Source: an uncultured Erysipelotrichaceae bacterium
GTDB taxonomy: Bacteria; Bacillota_I; Bacilli_A; Erysipelotrichales; Erysipelotrichaceae
Assembly: GCA_902786245.1 (NCBI GenBank)
Contig: CADABS010000001.1
Location: 62,001 to 126,000, forward strand
Length of the DNA stretch: 64,000 nt
Direction of reading: 5' to 3'
Each line of letters opens with the position of its first letter. The stretch's first letter is position 1. Shown piece by piece: positions 30,411 to 39,753 of the stretch. The translations under genes and the position numbers were made by a program. The notes under the pieces were generated by a model, which ran no database searches, was not told where the DNA came from, and saw only the letters and a program-made list of their open reading frames with translations.

Positions 30411-30445
30411 TCGTGGTATACTTGAAATCTGAAAGCGGGGAAACT

Positions 30446-32083
30446 ATGGCACTGGACGGAATCTTATTATCACGCATCGTACCGCAGATCGCATCCGCGA
30501 TGCCTCTGCGGATACAGAAAATCTGGGATATATCACCGACGGAGATCCTTTTTCAGACACACGGATCGGCCGGCCGTCAGCTGCTGCTGATCAGCTGCCA
30601 TTCCGTATACAACCGGATCCTGTTTACAAAGCGCTCCTATCCGACACCCGATGAACCGGGCAATTTCGTCATGGTCCTGCGCAAGTACCTGGACGGCGGC
30701 ATCATGGAAAGCATTGAACAGGCAGGTCTGGACCGCTGGTGTCTGATCCGCATCAGCCGCCGCAACAACCTCGGCGACATGGAACATCTGAAACTCTATG
30801 TCGAACTGATGGGCAAATACGCCAATGTCATCCTGGTCAATGCAGAAGACCGCATCATCGATGCCCTCAAGCGGATCCCGCCGTTTGAAAACAGCCGCCG
30901 CACCATCCATCCCGGGGCTGTATTCCCGATGATGCCCGCCCAGGATAAAAAAGACCCTTTTGAAACACCGCTGATCGATCCGCAGAAAAGTCTGACGGCA
31001 CAGTTCTCCGGCTTCTCGCCGTTTCTTTCAAAGGAAACAGAATACCGGATGGCCAATGGCGAAAAATTCGAAGACATCCTGGCGGAGATCCGCACCTCCC
31101 GTCAGCTCTTTATTGCCAATGACCAGGGCGAAGCCGCCTTCCACTGCATCGAACTCAAGCACTGCGGTCCGTGCCGCAGCTATGAACTGTTCGAAGGCTT
31201 CGATATCCTGTATTACCATAAAGAAGAAAAAGACCGGATCCGGCAGATCTCCGGCGATACCTTCCGGTTTGTGCAGCGCCAGCTGAAACATCAGAAGACC
31301 AAGCTGCCCCGGCTCTTAAGCGAACTGGACGAAGCGAATGACTGCGCCCGCTGGAAGACATACGGGGAACTGCTGTATGCCTATAACATCACCGATACCA
31401 AAGGACAGACTTCCATCTCCCTGGAAGACTTCGAAACCGGCAAGCCGGTCACCATACCCCTCGATCCGAAACTGGACGGGAAAGGAAACGCCCGCCGCTG
31501 CTATCAGAAATATACGAAGCTGAAAAAAGGCCAGGTGTATCTGGCTGAGCAGATCGATCTGTGCGAAAAAGAGATCACCTATTTCCAGGGACTTCTGGAA
31601 CAGCTCGACCAGGCTGATTTCGATACGGCATCGGAAATGAAAGAAGAACTGATCCGGCTGGGCTATCTCAAAGAAGACCGCCGCCGCAGAAAGCGCAAAA
31701 AAGATACCGGACCGAAGATCGTGCATACCAAGGCACCCGACGGAACACCGGTCTCCTTCGGCCGCAACAACCTGCAGAATGATGCGCTGACATGGCATCT
31801 TGCCCGCAAGAACGAGATCTGGCTCCATGCCAAGGATTATCACGGTGCCCATGTCGTGATCCACGATGAGCATCCCTCCGAAGAAACGATGCGCTTTGCG
31901 GCGAATATCGCTGCCTTCTTCTCGGCTGGCAGACAGTCTTCCAGCGTTCCTGTCATCTGGTGTCCGCAGCGGAACCTGAAAAAAATACCCGGCGCAAAAC
32001 CGGGTATGGTACAGCTTGGTTCCTATAAAATGATCTACATCGATCCCGAGCGGGAAATCATTGAATCACTCGGACTGATCTGA
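30446..32083 (+). CDS. rqcH: RqcH (Rqc2/NFACT) ribosome quality-control protein
   Basis: A 545-residue NFACT protein, formerly called fibronectin-binding protein. NFACT-N begins MALDGILLSRIV, a HhH-like and coiled-coil middle (KLKKGQVYLAEQIDL) follows, and NFACT-R contains SFGRNNLQNDALTWHLARKN and WLHAKDYHGAHVV. RqcH binds stalled 50S subunits with peptidyl-tRNA and recruits tRNA-Ala to add degradation-marking alanine tails. The start at 30446 follows GCGGGG; an upstream in-frame ATG lacks a ribosome site. Its 3' end overlaps rluB tail to tail by 18 bases. Confidence 0.95.
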   Translation: MALDGILLSRIVPQIASAMPLRIQKIWDISPTEILFQTHGSAGRQLLLISCHSVYNRILFTKRSYPTPDEPGNFVMVLRKYLDGGIMESIEQAGLDRWCLIRISRRNNLGDMEHLKLYVELMGKYANVILVNAEDRIIDALKRIPPFENSRRTIHPGAVFPMMPAQDKKDPFETPLIDPQKSLTAQFSGFSPFLSKETEYRMANGEKFEDILAEIRTSRQLFIANDQGEAAFHCIELKHCGPCRSYELFEGFDILYYHKEEKDRIRQISGDTFRFVQRQLKHQKTKLPRLLSELDEANDCARWKTYGELLYAYNITDTKGQTSISLEDFETGKPVTIPLDPKLDGKGNARRCYQKYTKLKKGQVYLAEQIDLCEKEITYFQGLLEQLDQADFDTASEMKEELIRLGYLKEDRRRRKRKKDTGPKIVHTKAPDGTPVSFGRNNLQNDALTWHLARKNEIWLHAKDYHGAHVVIHDEHPSEETMRFAANIAAFFSAGRQSSSVPVIWCPQRNLKKIPGAKPGMVQLGSYKMIYIDPEREIIESLGLI

Positions 32084-32806: not shown

Positions 32807-33082
32807 CTAATGTTTATTCTGCGTATTGCCCCAATAAGCCGAACCGGCCTTGGAATAATCATTCAGGATCATCACCGGAATCTTCCGGAAAGAAGAATCT
32901 GTTTCACACAGGATCGCACAGGCACTGAGCCGGCGGTTTCCGTCGACGCACACATAGCCGCCTTCCACGGCATTGACCTGCACCGGTATCGCGATATGCC
33001 GTTTGGCGATGCTCTCCAGCAGGATCCCCGGATCCTTTTTCTCATATTCGATTTCTTCCAGCATGACTGTTTTATTGATCAT
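32807..33082 (-). CDS. Mini ParB/sulfiredoxin-fold protein
   Basis: A 91-residue protein whose core VNAVEGGYVCVDGNRRLSACAILCE resembles the ParB N-terminal (CTPase/sulfiredoxin) motif G-N-R-R-L. There is no helix-turn-helix or C-terminal dimer domain, so it is not a partition protein. It overlaps the upstream gene by 4 bases and precedes rluB by 9 bases. It could be a small nucleotide-binding accessory protein; function is unknown. Confidence 0.65.
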   Translation of the reverse strand: MINKTVMLEEIEYEKKDPGILLESIAKRHIAIPVQVNAVEGGYVCVDGNRRLSACAILCETDSSFRKIPVMILNDYSKAGSAYWGNTQNKH

Positions 33083-33960
33083 AGTTCCTCTTTTACATAA
33101 ATCACGGTCGCAAACGGAAACAGTACCCGGTTCTTCAGATACGCCGCAGCTTCCTCGGTATGTTCACAGCGTCCGTATACACCGTTATAGAATACCGCTT
33201 TCCCGTTATGAATGCCGCGGTATGTTACATAATGGCCGCCCCTGGCATGGGTATAGAGCAGGATCCCGCATGTCTCGGGTATGAGCCTTGCACAGACCGC
33301 ATTGGACGGCCGGCTCAGATGCACAGGCAGTCCTTTGCGGCGCAGCCACAGGACGAGCCTGGGCAGGTCCTGGCCCATGACATCGCCCAGGAATGCATGT
33401 TTCTGCAGTTCCTCTGCACAGTTCTGCATCGGGATCTCATGGCCCATCATCCGCAGCAGGTTGTAGGCTGCGATCCATCCGCACCCTTTCGCTCTTGTAT
33501 CGAACCAACCGAACGGCAGTGCTTCCATCTTGCCCTGATCGACAATATATCCTTCCGGATCGAATACAGCATCCGGCACCATATACCGCCACTTCTCAAT
33601 GATTTTCTGCATGATCCTGCCTTTGGCATAGAAACCGCAGCCGTTCATCACCGCCGGTGCGATATCCGTATCCATCAGGACCTTTGCCGGATGTTTCATC
33701 TTGATGCTGCGCTCGCTGATCCAATAGACCAGCCGTCTCTTTTCACGCACACTCAGCGAAGGATCATGCATCAGTCTGATCATGACGCTGTCTCCTTCTT
33801 CGGTGACGGTCGCCGCTGCGATCTGCTTTCCTTCCGCAATGATGATGCCGGAAGCTGCCGAACCATGCGGAGAAAGCAGAAAATCCTCCGGCATCTCGGC
33901 ACCGAAGGAATCAAATATGAGCGGCCAGCGCACATCGGGAACGGTTCTGAACCGGATCAC
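33079..33960 (-). CDS. GNAT-like plus C39/papain-like cysteine peptidase-type fusion
   Basis: A 293-residue cytoplasmic protein that appears to have two parts. Residues 1-130 resemble a degenerate GNAT fold (GIIIAEGKQIAAATV, MNGCGFYAKGRIMQ). Residues 150-293 look like a papain-like C39-type domain. A Cys in KGCGWIAAYNLLRMMG is followed by GGHYVTYRGI (His) and VFYNGVYGR (Asn), the Cys-His-Asn/Asp order of such peptidases. No signal peptide, so an intracellular substrate is expected. It overlaps the genes on both sides by 4 bases. Both domain calls are by eye. Confidence 0.55.
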   Translation of the reverse strand: MIRFRTVPDVRWPLIFDSFGAEMPEDFLLSPHGSAASGIIIAEGKQIAAATVTEEGDSVMIRLMHDPSLSVREKRRLVYWISERSIKMKHPAKVLMDTDIAPAVMNGCGFYAKGRIMQKIIEKWRYMVPDAVFDPEGYIVDQGKMEALPFGWFDTRAKGCGWIAAYNLLRMMGHEIPMQNCAEELQKHAFLGDVMGQDLPRLVLWLRRKGLPVHLSRPSNAVCARLIPETCGILLYTHARGGHYVTYRGIHNGKAVFYNGVYGRCEHTEEAAAYLKNRVLFPFATVIYVKEEL

Positions 33961-34437: not shown

Positions 34438-36936
34438 TCAGCCCAGCACTTCGCTGATCTGTTTCTCCGCCAGCAGAACGCTCTGTTCCAGTTCCCTTGC
34501 GGACATCCGCAGTCCGCCATGGGCAAGCACGGCGTTCTGAATCAGACCGTCGCTCGTCGCTGCCCGGATGGCACAGCGGTCTTTGAGTTCCAGCGATATC
34601 CGCTCGATATAGCTGTCTGCGGTTTCATCCGCTCTGGTATAGACGATCTCCATATCGCCACGTTTCATCGAAGAGCCGGCATTGTCCTTGCGCCGGTATC
34701 CGTCAAAGACAAGGATCATCTTCTCATTGCGGAATGCCTGATAATTGTACAGCCGGTCGATCAGCCGTTCCCGGGCCGTGGATATATCGACCTTTGCCAG
34801 TTCACGCAGATCCTGCCAGTCATAGATCATGTTATAGCCGTCCACGATCAGACACCCGGGCTTATGCACCGCCGGCTTTGCCTTCGGCTTCCGCATTTCT
34901 TCCTGTTCCTTCTTCTTCGCCGTTTTCTTTTCCGTACTGCGGTTGTTGCCGAAGGTGGAATCAAATACGCGTTTGAGTTCTTCATTGGACACCCGGTGCC
35001 GTACCGGCGAAGAGGAAGATGAATGCGCTTCTTCCGTTTTCAGCTGCACATGCATATGTTCATCCGCCAGATTCCAGGGAACGATATACCCGCTGCCGTT
35101 GGCACAGAACACAGAATCCGGTGTCCGGAAGCGGTCCGCATCGGGATCATAGCCGACCGCATCGATGACGGTACTGGGATCCTGACAGACATCATATGCA
35201 CCCGGTTCCCAGGAAAAGACGCCTTTGCCATGGCTGTATGCCGCAAGATCCGAGGCATAGTTCATCAGCAGCCGCACCGCGCCGCTGCCGTGTACATAAA
35301 CAATGCCGTCCGCCGTTTCCGCTACCTCTGCACTGGCATGTATGCGCTCCATATCGTACAGGGCATGGCTCAAAGCATCCGCCGGTATCCGCAGGCTGTA
35401 GCTGCAGTACGGCTCCAGCAGGATGTTTTCGCTTTTATAGAGACCCTGGCGCAGTGCCCGCATGGCTGCCTGGCGGAAGTCGCCTGCTTCGGTATGCTTG
35501 AGATGTCCTCTGCCGGCAATCAGCGTAATGCGCAGATCGCTCAGCGGGCTGTTGGTCAGGATGCCCCGCAGCTTTGCCGTACGCAATGCTGAAAGGACAG
35601 AAGCCTGCCATGCTTCATTCATGACATCGCGGGGACATTCACTGTCAATGACCAGACCGCTGCCCCGCTGCAGCGGTGTCAGCCGCAGATGGACTTCCGC
35701 ATAATGGCGCAGTGGTTCAAAATGGCCGCTGCCGATGACTTCCCCGGCAATCGTCTCCGCATACAGGATCCTGCCCGGTCCGAAATCGACTGCGATGCCG
35801 CTGCGTTTTTCGATCGTATGCCGAAGAACCTCTTTCTGCATATCGCCCATGATCTGCACATAGAGATGTCTGCCGCTTTCATCCGTACTGATCTGCAGCT
35901 GCGGATCTTCGGTTTCGATCTGCCGGAAGATCCTTGTCAGTTTGAGAACATCCGCCCGGTCCGAGCACAGGATTTCATAGGTCATGCATGCACTCAGCAA
36001 TGCTTCTTTTTCATCTTCTTCAAAACCGAGGCCGCTGCCGGCATCCTTGGAAGATATGCCTTTGAGGGTGCAGATCATGCCGGCGGATACTTCATTCACC
36101 GCATCGAACCGGGTTCCGTTATAGATCCGCACCGCATCCGCTTTTTCATCTTCCGTGATCCTGTCCCGCACATGCAGGGTTCCGCCGGTCACCTTGATAT
36201 GGGTCAGACGGGTGCCGTCGGTATCCTGGGAGATCCGGTAGACCCTTGCCCCGAATTCTTCCGGATATTCCCGGTATCCGGCCTGGGCAGCAACCGTATC
36301 GAGCAGTGCATCGACATTCTGCCGCTTCAGAGCCGAACCGAAAATGACGGGAATGTACTTCCTTGCCGCAAATGCCTCCTGCAGCAGTCTTTCATCGATT
36401 TCTCCGCTTTCCAGATATGTTTCCAGCAGTTCTTCACTGCACATTGCCAGCTGCTCGGGATCCTGCGTATCCGCCCGCAGACAGGCGCTGCCGCATTTCT
36501 TCTGCAGTTCTAAAAGGATCTCTTCTTCGCTTCTGTAGCAGATATCCATCTTGTTCACAAAGATCATGCAGGGCACATTGTAATGTTCCAGACACCGCAG
36601 GATCGTTTCCGTATGGCTCTGGATGCCGTCCGGTCCGCTGATGACAAGCACTGCCAGATCAATGACCCGCAGGGTCCTTTCCATTTCCGATGAAAAGTCG
36701 ACATGGCCCGGCGTATCCAGGATCTGGATCGTCGTATCCTTCCAGGAAAGGCAGGCTTCCTTGGCATAGATCGTAATGCCACGCTCCCGTTCCTGCTCGT
36801 CATAATCCAGCAGGGAATCGCCGTGATCCACCCTGCCCCAGGACCGGATCGAACCGGCCAGATAGGACATCGCTTCTATACATGTTGTTTTTCCGGCATC
36901 GACGTGTGCCAGAACTCCGATCACCATATGTTTCAT
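34438..36936 (-). CDS. TetM-like ribosomal-protection GTPase fused to YacP/Rae1-type NYN endonuclease domain
   Basis: An 832-residue two-part protein. Residues 1-640 follow the EF-G-like layout of TetM/TetO: G1 HVDAGKT (11-17), RERGITI (51-57), G3 DTPGHVD (74-80), NKMD (128-131), then beta-barrel, III, IV and V domains without an EF-G-type insertion. A Lys-rich linker (about 655-693) leads to a NYN domain (694-832) of the YacP/Rae1 type. It has CLIVDGYNMIYDW (Asp699), LVFDGYRR, TRADETADSYIE (Asp770, Asp774) and ATSDGLIQ, the acidic residues of the metal site. Free-standing Rae1 cuts mRNA in the ribosomal A site. The fusion should deliver that activity to a ribosome with the GTPase bound. The G domain is clearly divergent from acquired tetracycline-resistance proteins, so resistance should not be assumed. 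No ribosome site precedes the ATG. Confidence 0.9.
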   Translation of the reverse strand: MKHMVIGVLAHVDAGKTTCIEAMSYLAGSIRSWGRVDHGDSLLDYDEQERERGITIYAKEACLSWKDTTIQILDTPGHVDFSSEMERTLRVIDLAVLVISGPDGIQSHTETILRCLEHYNVPCMIFVNKMDICYRSEEEILLELQKKCGSACLRADTQDPEQLAMCSEELLETYLESGEIDERLLQEAFAARKYIPVIFGSALKRQNVDALLDTVAAQAGYREYPEEFGARVYRISQDTDGTRLTHIKVTGGTLHVRDRITEDEKADAVRIYNGTRFDAVNEVSAGMICTLKGISSKDAGSGLGFEEDEKEALLSACMTYEILCSDRADVLKLTRIFRQIETEDPQLQISTDESGRHLYVQIMGDMQKEVLRHTIEKRSGIAVDFGPGRILYAETIAGEVIGSGHFEPLRHYAEVHLRLTPLQRGSGLVIDSECPRDVMNEAWQASVLSALRTAKLRGILTNSPLSDLRITLIAGRGHLKHTEAGDFRQAAMRALRQGLYKSENILLEPYCSYSLRIPADALSHALYDMERIHASAEVAETADGIVYVHGSGAVRLLMNYASDLAAYSHGKGVFSWEPGAYDVCQDPSTVIDAVGYDPDADRFRTPDSVFCANGSGYIVPWNLADEHMHVQLKTEEAHSSSSSPVRHRVSNEELKRVFDSTFGNNRSTEKKTAKKKEQEEMRKPKAKPAVHKPGCLIVDGYNMIYDWQDLRELAKVDISTARERLIDRLYNYQAFRNEKMILVFDGYRRKDNAGSSMKRGDMEIVYTRADETADSYIERISLELKDRCAIRAATSDGLIQNAVLAHGGLRMSARELEQSVLLAEKQISEVLG

Positions 36937-36944
36937 ACCAGAGT

Positions 36945-36950
36945 ATTATA
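36945..36950 (-). promoter_or_regulatory. -10 element of the TetM-NYN gene
   Basis: A perfect TATAAT lies 8 bases before the ATG and shares its first T with the pepF terminator T-run. The 5' leader would be about 2 nt. The -35 (TGGCAA at 17 bp) is weak and lies inside the terminator stem. Confidence 0.55.
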
Positions 36951-36976
36951 AAAAAACGGCGGCATGATTGCCACCG
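36951..36976 (-). terminator. Terminator of pepF
   Basis: CGGTGGC / GCCGCCG stem followed by a T-run on the minus strand, 10 bp after the pepF stop. Confidence 0.85.
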
Positions 36977-36986
36977 TTGTTATTTA

Positions 36987-38792
36987 TTACAGTCCCAGCG
37001 TATCCGCGATCTGCTCTGCTTCTTCGACCGCTGCAGCGAACTTCTTCAGTGCGGTTTCCACCGGTTCCGGTGTAGTCAGATCGACGCCGGCATGTTTCAG
37101 TTCATCCAGCGGATAGGCACTGCTGCCCATGGACAGGAATTCCAGATACTTCTGCACCGCCGCATCGCCGCCATGCAGGATCCTGTCGGCCAGCGCAACC
37201 GCTGCCGAATAGCCGGTCGCATAGACGTAGACATAGAACGGCCGGTAGAAATGCGGAATCCGCGACCATTCATAGCGGACCAGCGGATCGACCGTGAGAT
37301 CTTCGCCGAAGTAGGTACGGATCAGTTTCTCATACATCGCACAGAATACCGACGCATTGAGCGCTTCCCCTTTTTCGCACAGTTCATGGGCCTGCTTCTC
37401 GAATTCCGCAAACATTGTCTGCCGGTAGACCGTGCCCTTGAATCCTTCCATGACCTGGTTGAGCAGCACCAGACGTCTGGCCGGATCTTTTTCTTCTTTC
37501 AGCAGCGCTTCAATGAGCAGGTTCTCGTTGACCGTGGAAGCGACCTCCGCAACAAACAGCGAATAATCCGCATACTGCGGCGGCTGGTTCGCATTGGTAT
37601 GCCATGTGTGCATGGAATGGCCCATCTCATGGGCAATCGTCGAAACATCATTGAGACGTCCGGCAAAATTGGTCAGGATGTACGGATTGGAATCATAGCA
37701 TCCGGAAGAATAGGCACCGCCGCTCTTGCCTTTGTTGGGATATACATCGATCCAGCGGTCGCGGAACGCACCTCTGACCGTATCGCAGTATTTTTCACCC
37801 AGCGGCGCAACTGCCTTGAGAACAAGCTCCTGGGCCTGTTCATAGGTATATTTATCCTGGGAACCGGCTGTCAGAGGCATATATACATCGTAATAATGCA
37901 GATCATCCAGCTTCAGCAGTCTCTTCCGCAGCCGGACATAGCGGTACATCGTATCCATATGGGCATGCACGGTATTGATCAGATTGTCATAGACCGATAC
38001 CGGCAGCGCATCGGCCGCCATCATCATTTCTCTGGAAGAACCGTATCCCCGGACCCTGGCTTCTGCCGCAGACGTCTTCAGTACACCGGCATAGGCTGAC
38101 GCAAAGGTGTTTTCATGATGTTTGTAGCCTTCGTAATACTTCTCAAATGCATCCGCCCGCAGGACTCTGTCGGGATCTGTCTGCAGCAGGATGAATCCGG
38201 CATCGCTGACTTCGTGCAAATTGCCTTCGCTGTCTTTTGCATCTTCGTAGTACATATCCGCATCCATCAGGCTTTCCGATACCATCGAAGGCGTTGCCAG
38301 TGCTTCCGAGAAAGCTGCCAGCAGTCCTTCCTGTTCTTTGGAAAGCATATGCGGTTTACGTCTGAGCAGATCATGGAGATAGAAGCTGTAGTCCTGCAGC
38401 TTTTCACTGTCCGCGATCTCTTTCAGAACATCTTCGCCCAGACTCAGGATCTCCGGTTCGGCAAAGGCCGTCATCTCGCCCAGGGACGAATACTTCCCGT
38501 AGCAGCGCATGTACATCGACTGCGCCGCCGGATCGCGGGTATCTTCGCTGTGGCGCAGACTGGCATAGGTAAACAGCTTTGACATATGCCGGCTGGTGTC
38601 TGTCAGTCCCTGCAGATATGCAAGGATGGCATCGGCTTCATGCAGCTTTCCCTGCCATGCACTGAGCTTTGCGCACTCTGCGTCAATGCCGGCAAAATCG
38701 TCTTCCCATGCGGCGTCGGACGCATACATGGAAGTCAGATCCCACATGTACGCGGGATCCATGTCTTTTCTTTCTCTGATCGTTTCACTCAT
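36987..38792 (-). CDS. pepF: Oligoendopeptidase F (M3B)
   Basis: A 601-residue cytoplasmic zinc metallopeptidase. The M3 site is HEMGHSMHTWH with the further Glu in a helix after it (EVASTVNE). Length and the N-terminal helical domain (MWDLTSMYASDAAWEDDF) match PepF, which degrades oligopeptides of about 7-17 residues. It overlaps the end of the YjbR/EVE-like gene by 8 bases and ends at a strong terminator. Confidence 0.96.
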   Translation of the reverse strand: MSETIRERKDMDPAYMWDLTSMYASDAAWEDDFAGIDAECAKLSAWQGKLHEADAILAYLQGLTDTSRHMSKLFTYASLRHSEDTRDPAAQSMYMRCYGKYSSLGEMTAFAEPEILSLGEDVLKEIADSEKLQDYSFYLHDLLRRKPHMLSKEQEGLLAAFSEALATPSMVSESLMDADMYYEDAKDSEGNLHEVSDAGFILLQTDPDRVLRADAFEKYYEGYKHHENTFASAYAGVLKTSAAEARVRGYGSSREMMMAADALPVSVYDNLINTVHAHMDTMYRYVRLRKRLLKLDDLHYYDVYMPLTAGSQDKYTYEQAQELVLKAVAPLGEKYCDTVRGAFRDRWIDVYPNKGKSGGAYSSGCYDSNPYILTNFAGRLNDVSTIAHEMGHSMHTWHTNANQPPQYADYSLFVAEVASTVNENLLIEALLKEEKDPARRLVLLNQVMEGFKGTVYRQTMFAEFEKQAHELCEKGEALNASVFCAMYEKLIRTYFGEDLTVDPLVRYEWSRIPHFYRPFYVYVYATGYSAAVALADRILHGGDAAVQKYLEFLSMGSSAYPLDELKHAGVDLTTPEPVETALKKFAAAVEEAEQIADTLGL

Positions 38793-39753
38793 CGTTTTCT
38801 TCCTCCCCGGGATACAGTTTACTGATCTCTTCTCTGAGCGGCTGTGTCATATAGCGGGCACCGCGGATATTCGTGATGCCCAGTTCCTTCAGTCTTTTCC
38901 GGTCAATCTTTCCGTCTTTATACATGGCAATGCACTTCAGCCGGCACATCTGATCGATCTTCATCGGTTCATCATGTCTGCCTTTATAAGGCAGATTGCA
39001 TTCTGTCACGATGCATTTATAGCGGATGGAGCCGAACGGCATGCCATAGTAAATATAGACCAGATCGCCTTCCTGCGCATCAAAACTCTGTTTCCAGTAC
39101 AGCTGTTTTGATACGGAAAAGCCATGGTCCAGATCAAAGTATTTCGGATTGGCAGGGATGATCCATTCTTTTCTTTCGCCTTCACGCCGGCCTGCATGCG
39201 TCTGTACAGGTATGGATCCTGCAATCTGCGTATCGGTATATGTATCATCCAGCGGAATGCGCTGATACACGGTACGGCCATGGCGCACCGTCTCATACCG
39301 GCTGCTTCCGCCCTGTTTCATGCGGATCTCCAGAAACTCCATGCCGGTTTCTTCATCGGATACGATCCTGGCATCTCTGCTTTCATCCCCATATCCTTCT
39401 GACGCCAGCACGGCAGCGATCCGTTCCGACTGATCATAAGCATAGCGGACCTGATTGAAACAGGCTTCTGCAATCTCCTGCAGCTTTGCCATGTATTCTT
39501 CGCGGATCATTGCAGCGTAGGCACCTTTTGGGCCGGCCGCCCGCAATGCGATATACGGATCGCCTGTTTCCGCATCGTTTACTTCGCTGAAAATACGCAG
39601 ATCCGCACCGACGGTAATACGCGCCTCAAAAACACCGTGACCCAGCGGAAACACAAAGCACAGATTCCCGTTTTCATCTTTTCTGAAACCGTATGCCGCC
39701 ATGCGTTCTCTGTTTCCCCGCATCCGGCGCAGCAGCAGCCTGTCCTCATTCAT
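38785..39753 (-). CDS. YjbR/MmcQ-like plus EVE/PUA-like two-domain protein
   Basis: A 322-residue cytoplasmic protein. The first 105 residues resemble the MmcQ/YjbR DNA-binding-like fold, with GAYAAMIREEYMAKLQEIAEACF. The second half (about 190-322) looks like an EVE/PUA-type domain. It starts WIIPANPKYFDLDHGF, continues EGDLVYIYYG, and ends with TNIRGARYMTQPLREEI, typical of EVE proteins that bind modified bases. A nucleic-acid-binding role is inferred; I know no function. It overlaps pepF by 8 bases. TAGAAT lies 10 bases before its ATG and there is no good ribosome site. Confidence 0.6.
   Translation of the reverse strand: MNEDRLLLRRMRGNRERMAAYGFRKDENGNLCFVFPLGHGVFEARITVGADLRIFSEVNDAETGDPYIALRAAGPKGAYAAMIREEYMAKLQEIAEACFNQVRYAYDQSERIAAVLASEGYGDESRDARIVSDEETGMEFLEIRMKQGGSSRYETVRHGRTVYQRIPLDDTYTDTQIAGSIPVQTHAGRREGERKEWIIPANPKYFDLDHGFSVSKQLYWKQSFDAQEGDLVYIYYGMPFGSIRYKCIVTECNLPYKGRHDEPMKIDQMCRLKCIAMYKDGKIDRKRLKELGITNIRGARYMTQPLREEISKLYPGEEENDE

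Follow-up and report, generated by a model that had tools for sequence, protein, structure and literature searches.

A protein encoded in a 64,000-nucleotide stretch of DNA from an uncultured Erysipelotrichaceae bacterium (contig CADABS010000001.1; hereafter, the window) raises the question of why a translation GTPase of the EF-G type should be joined, in a single chain, to a nuclease of the Rae1/YacP type, and whether the product serves in tetracycline resistance or in the cleavage of mRNA on the ribosome. The gene lies at positions 34438-36936 on the minus strand, as are all of its parts described below, and forms an intact frame of 832 residues without stops. A preliminary description had read its product as an EF-G-type GTPase, a linker and a Rae1/YacP-like NYN domain in one chain, and that observation was confirmed, with the open reading frame, the Pfam matches and the Rae1 fold in agreement; because the same fusion is found in more than 100 genomes, its occurrence goes beyond chance. 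The GTPase half displays the five domains, the P-loop and the catalytic histidine of the EF-G superfamily of translation GTPases: a G domain with the P-loop AHVDAGKT and the sequence DTPGH (residues 2-216, positions 36289-36933; Pfam GTP_EFTU, 1.5e-49), domain II (residues 230-296, 36049-36249; a weak Pfam match to EF-G_D2), domain III (residues 317-386, 35779-35988; Pfam EFG_III, slightly under its cut-off), domain IV (residues 390-502, 35431-35769; Pfam EFG_IV) and domain V (residues 506-585, 35182-35421; Pfam EFG_C). These are followed by a family-specific C-terminal extension (residues 586-632, 35041-35181; consensus SVFCxHGAGYxVPWxxVxxxMH), by a linker that is predicted to be disordered (residues 633-692, 34861-35040), and by the nuclease domain (residues 695-832, 34441-34854; Pfam NYN_YacP over residues 696-829, 3.2e-39). 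In an AF2 model of the full-length chain the GTPase and NYN domains are well predicted, the linker falls below a pLDDT of 50 over residues 634-690, and the two halves take up no defined mutual arrangement (pTM 0.60).

The relationship of the nuclease half to Rae1 is evident at the level of profile, structure and active site. Its match to PF05991 scores 135 bits, versus a gathering score of 24.6; a comparison of its sequence with those of solved structures returned Bacillus subtilis Rae1 (5MQ8/5MQ9, 4.8e-20, approximately 35% identity) and otherwise a single chance match (E 0.8); and its AF2 model, with a pLDDT of about 90 or more across nearly the whole domain, superimposes on Rae1 5MQ9 with an rmsd of 1.8 A (E 1.6e-10). 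In an alignment of 44 fused and nine free-standing domains, five residues are invariant in all of the fusions and all of the free-standing relatives: Asp699 (codon at 34840-34842; Rae1 Asp7), Asn702 (Rae1 Asn10), Asp745 (34702-34704; Rae1 Asp53), Asp774 (34615-34617; Rae1 Asp81) and Asp796 (34549-34551; Rae1 Asp104). Glu778 is kept in 41 of the 44 fusions, and position 770 is an aspartate in just six of them; the acidic set that had been proposed for this domain therefore stands for Asp699 and Asp774 and fails for Asp770, with Asp745 and Asp796 conserved instead. Purifying selection acts strongly on both halves, as judged from the three pairs of most similar fusions, which give dN/dS values of about 0.08-0.11 for the NYN domain and 0.11-0.17 for the GTPase, with mostly far higher dN in the linker outside its conserved motif. 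These ratios, together with the invariant active sites (the GTPase catalytic residue, His78 of DTPGH, is also unchanged in all 44 fusions), indicate that both enzymes are maintained, and the fusion is very probably an active endonuclease.

While the window's domain thus shares with B. subtilis Rae1 its fold and all of its catalytic aspartate and asparagine residues, the latter protein is free-standing, is encoded in the rlmB operon, has no GTPase and carries a C-terminal tail (WRRG, with W164 and R166) that is lacking here, where the domain stops near Rae1 residue 140. In B. subtilis, an allele with the substitution R166P in that tail causes loss of function (PMC6613710). The tail lies outside the active site that defines PF05991, and its absence limits the statement that the domain works exactly like Rae1, not its membership in the NYN fold; because the tail is missing, the domain may not bind the ribosome or choose codons as Rae1 does, and some of the contacts made by Rae1 itself may have been substituted in the fusion.

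The distribution of the fusion indicates that it takes the place of a free-standing gene. The preliminary description had made its proposal depend on there being no separate yacP in the same genome, and none was found: a PF05991 profile search of that genome returned one match, the fusion itself, and the cysS-mrnC-rlmB region passes directly to a sigH-like frame with no yacP between them, at the rlmB-yacP-sigH slot in which yacP/rae1 is present in B. subtilis, Clostridioides difficile and Listeria. The empty slot and the sole PF05991 gene together imply that the fusion stands in for the free gene. Across the window's family the NYN domain is present in 116 of 171 genomes; 109 of its 120 places are frames of 700 residues or more, and six of the 11 short-frame places are cut at contig ends (G508 and G498 being judged from coordinates and the others inspected directly). 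Short NYN frames in G508, G498, G481, G506, G501, G484 and G528 were considered as free-standing genes and rejected as contig-end cuts. When 393 genomes of the phylum were surveyed, 40 had both the NYN domain and this GTPase, the exceptions being two genomes with the GTPase alone (G282, G119) and one with the NYN domain and a shortened GTPase (G132), and a free-standing yacP alongside the fusion was found in none of the 393. The nearest named relative is from Holdemanella biformis, also of the Erysipelotrichaceae (51-52%), and the fusion is single-copy, chromosomal, common across much of its order and not mobile. Free yacP genes on records labelled as plasmids (C. difficile, Listeria, S. aureus, B. 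subtilis) were rejected as mobile copies, those records carrying the chromosomal rlmB operon and thus resembling fragments of the chromosome. Fusions on two records labelled 'Bacteriophage sp.' (L185 and L186; MT835563 and MT835514) were likewise rejected as phage genes, since the gene content of the records is that of a bacterial chromosome (with addAB-like, feoB-like, rsmH-like, gltX-like and dapF-like neighbours, recognized by eye) and they are likely mislabelled; in viral contigs no YacP-type nuclease was found, the matches there being to unfused relatives, Tet proteins and EF-G only.

The segment that joins the two enzymes had been described as rich in lysine, a property that proved not to be conserved, given a net charge that ranges from -2 to +11 among the fusions. 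What is conserved is its length, 58-66 residues in most fusions, and a motif, [IV]SDEELKR[IV][FY]xxT[YF]G, at residues 649-666 (34939-34992), about 45 residues before the NYN domain, where a short helix is predicted with low confidence. The motif averages about 2 bits per column, versus about 0.9 on both flanks, and in the alignment it is found neither in unfused GTPases nor in free Rae1.

Natural variants of the fusion provide a deletion series, in which the coupling of the two activities becomes testable. Within a single genus of the same family (g16) are found full fusions of 829 and 821 residues (G465, G451); fusions of 594 and 603 residues (G132, G456; 64% identical, from two species) in which domains IV and V are gone and the chain passes from approximately GTPase residue 386 through an acidic spacer to the linker motif and the NYN domain; and nuclease-only genes of 201 and 205 residues (G462, G466; again two species) consisting of the linker motif and the NYN domain. 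The nuclease-only and domain IV-V-deleted genes (L118:6850-7455, L119:7501-8118, L085:7843-9627 and L123:6752-8563) all retain the catalytic residues as well as the motif. The nuclease-only genes share the gene order of the full fusion of G451, with an ung-like gene upstream and a dus-like gene downstream, and a search of both genomes found this GTPase nowhere else; the shared order and the lack of the GTPase elsewhere indicate that the GTPase half disappeared at this very locus. In a further genome (G293; L084:7027-9518) a GTPase frame of 684 residues, which keeps the linker motif, overlaps by 4 bp an NYN frame of 146 residues, an arrangement that could be a real fission or an assembly frameshift.

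The converse is also seen, in GTPase-only relatives from Paenibacillus, Ligilactobacillus, Subdoligranulum and the genomes of family f12, with Paenibacillus carrying the GTPase alone plus a free yacP. The unfused proteins of the first three genera, named 'Translation factor GTPase family protein', belong to the same clade as the window's GTPase, at 38-41% identity and with a similar domain IV tip and extension, but have neither the linker motif nor the nuclease. A tree of NYN domains does not reject a single fused clade (p-AU 0.255), and a GTPase tree places these unfused proteins beside the fused proteins of Clostridia (support 96/98), so that a single origin of the fusion is possible and either gain or loss may have occurred in the unfused lineages.

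In the window's family the gene is predicted to be expressed from a leaderless mRNA. A TATAAT hexamer (36945-36950), the -10 element of a predicted leaderless promoter, ends 8 nucleotides before the ATG; a terminator-like stem-loop 3' of pepF (36955-36978) has a T tract that runs into the hexamer; and no Shine-Dalgarno sequence lies upstream of the gene. The same arrangement of stem-loop and TATAAT is found again among relatives in the window's family. When the fusion genes of 20 additional genomes from the window's genus were scored for a -10-like hexamer (five of six positions matching, or better) within 12 nucleotides of the start, 13 possessed one, versus 2.9% at random positions, a contrast for which the relatedness of the sample, including two pairs of near-duplicates, makes the p-value optimistic; other genes of the same loci, scored by a looser rule, had such a hexamer in seven of 133 cases. 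Shine-Dalgarno-like sequences are present before the fusion genes of families f2 and f19, Agathobacter and Monoglobus, and outside the window's family the leaderless arrangement was not seen. The fusion mRNA in the window's family is thus predicted to begin at or adjoining the ATG, and so to be leaderless.

What the joined protein does can be approached through its free-standing counterpart. Cleavage of mRNA in the A site by Rae1 frees that mRNA for tmRNA, and tmRNA is present in the genome described here. Rae1 itself has been shown to attack mRNA in the A site (PMC12320835; PMC6613710), and by analogy the fusion probably also acts on ribosome-bound mRNA. The reading favored here, held at about even odds, is that of a chromosomal, ribosome-associated factor that replaces Rae1 with a tethered version of it; that the GTPase targets the nuclease to the ribosome is credited to the same degree. 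Domains I-V would dock the protein on stalled or slow ribosomes, at the site where translation factors bind; the NYN domain, on its tether of approximately 60 residues, would reach the decoding region and cut the mRNA in a vacant A site, and tmRNA would then rescue the truncated complex. A linker of that length can span much of the ribosome, and because some 60 of its residues are predicted to be disordered, reach does not discriminate between models. The GTPase would mainly raise the local concentration of the nuclease and select the ribosomes that are visited, and may be regarded as a helpful yet replaceable targeting module, since nuclease-only orthologues persist.

Two elements of the mechanism originally suggested fare less well. 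Placement of the nuclease by the GTPase in a single step would be sterically awkward in the full-length protein, in which domain IV and the NYN domain should exclude each other from the A site; because both cannot share that site, they would act there in turn. The natural forms without domains IV and V hint that the NYN domain can take the place of domain IV. That cleavage should depend obligatorily on GTP hydrolysis is argued against by the occurrence of each half alone in some lineage (syntenic nuclease-only orthologues on the one hand, GTPase-only relatives on the other), and strict coupling is considered unlikely. It is an open question by which factors endonucleases are brought to stalled ribosomes in bacteria, and the known set of A-site nucleases has been described as incomplete (PMC12320835); in the present protein a targeting module and a nuclease are found in one polypeptide.

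The same variants bear on the possibility that the two halves merely travel together, with the GTPase performing a ribosomal task of its own, such as freeing the A site or resetting it, while the NYN domain works as an ordinary Rae1 that gains co-expression and proximity, but no mechanistic coupling. The GTPase-only proteins, the nuclease-only orthologues, the overlapping frames of the split gene and the disordered linker would all be expected from such an arrangement. Weighing against it are the dominance of the fused form in the family (most places being long frames, and six of the remaining 11 contig-end cuts), the conservation of both the length and the motif of the linker, and the persistence of the connection between domains G-II-III and the NYN domain even where domains IV and V have been deleted, so that this explanation is possible but doubtful. 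A more elaborate scheme, in which the protein acts in two strokes, would have the GTPase half enter in the manner of EF-G and domain IV clear or reset a stalled A site and leave, after which the NYN domain, positioned by the conserved linker motif, would swing in and cut the mRNA; in forms without domains IV-V the nuclease itself would fill domain IV's place, and a leaderless mRNA would maintain synthesis of the factor when normal initiation is blocked. That scheme is judged decidedly unlikely.

A third explanation, that the protein arose as a ribosomal protection protein against tetracycline to which an RNase has been added, and still confers resistance, follows a remark made in passing by Atkinson in 2015, and depends on whether the GTPase is of the TetM type in a functional sense, as the preliminary description had assumed. 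The GTPase shares with TetM and TetO the five-domain EF-G-like plan, and the curated models that match it best are indeed Tet models; its matches to them nevertheless stay below cut-off, with 363 bits on the tetracycline-protection equivalog NF012153 against a required 775 and 879 for a control TetM, and with 381-422 bits for relatives from Agathobacter, Monoglobus, Paenibacillus and Ligilactobacillus. Identity is 26.6% to TetM and 25.8% to the EF-G of the same genome, versus 34-53% within its own clade, and in a maximum-likelihood tree (with long branches at its base) the GTPase and its unfused relatives form a clade apart from TetM/O/W/S and EF-G with 100/100 support. The domain IV loop YYSPVST of TetM, whose Pro509 lies in the tetracycline site (PMC8161019), is replaced in this clade by a conserved HLKHTEAGDF or HLKHTEGGDF; in the window the tip loop reads GRGHLKHTEAGDFR (residues 475-488, 35473-35514), and in the alignment it is conserved across fused and unfused members. 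The tip histidine aligns with that of EF-G, from which the protein otherwise differs in identity and in coexisting with a separate EF-G gene. The extension at residues 586-632 is present in neither TetM/O/W/S nor EF-G. Cys584, just before it, and Cys611 and His629 within it might bind metal, though their conservation is incomplete; a zinc site was set aside, these residues being kept in only 31, 37 and 37 of the 44 fusions.

Low identity, scores below the curated cut-off, the lack of the drug-expelling loop and a single-copy chromosomal, vertically inherited gene together argue that the GTPase half is not, as judged from its sequence, a TetM-type resistance protein. The presence of members without domain IV points the same way, and resistance as the function of the fusion is very improbable, even though the Bacillus cereus group has an unfused TetM-like gene on its chromosome, of this clade or another, that does confer it (PMC5209696) and NCBI names the Agathobacter rectalis fusion, WP_306784676.1, a 'TetM/TetW/TetO/TetS family tetracycline resistance ribosomal protection protein'. 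That name bears out the earlier expectation that such fusions are annotated automatically as resistance proteins (the Monoglobus fusion is instead named 'translation factor GTPase family protein'). Many chromosomal annotations of the 'TetM/TetW/TetO/TetS family' in gut Firmicutes are probably not resistance genes, and their mislabelling bears on resistome counts. The weakest alternative, an RNase recruited to the ribosome for maturation of rRNA or tRNA and not for mRNA decay, accords with the role first proposed for NYN domains (cited in PMC4342817) and with the position of free yacP beside rlmB and mrnC, but the characterized member, Rae1, cuts A-site mRNA and the gene for the fusion no longer lies in the rlmB operon, so that this alternative is highly improbable.

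The architecture itself is not new. Atkinson reported in 2015 that the Tet proteins of ten Clostridiales had acquired a YacP-like NYN domain, as a possible novel mechanism of resistance (PMC4342817), and those proteins have the same order of a Tet/EF-G-like GTPase and then the nuclease in one chain. That sentence was the only mention of the fusion found in the literature searched, and, in keeping with what had been stated beforehand, no functional study was found there. Whereas the earlier report proposed an acquired resistance domain, the present analysis covers more than 100 Erysipelotrichales-type genomes, and adds the truncation series within one genus and its GTPase-only converse, the split gene, the linker motif and the predicted leaderless mRNA, with novelty being provisional for the truncated variants.

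Gene neighbors conserved across genera were not found for the fusion. In the window, a ribosome quality-control gene of the RqcH/NFACT type (30413-32083, plus strand) lies approximately 2.4 kb away, in a neighborhood that is not conserved; two proteins of 293 and 322 residues encoded on the same strand as the fusion (33079-33960 and 38785-39753, both minus) have no Pfam or NCBIfam match, and a 91-residue protein (32807-33082, minus) resembles, by eye, a lone ParB-type N-terminal domain. In another genome (G125, L086:14561-16615), a second and very divergent EF-G-like protein of 684 residues is encoded approximately 4.5 kb from the fusion.
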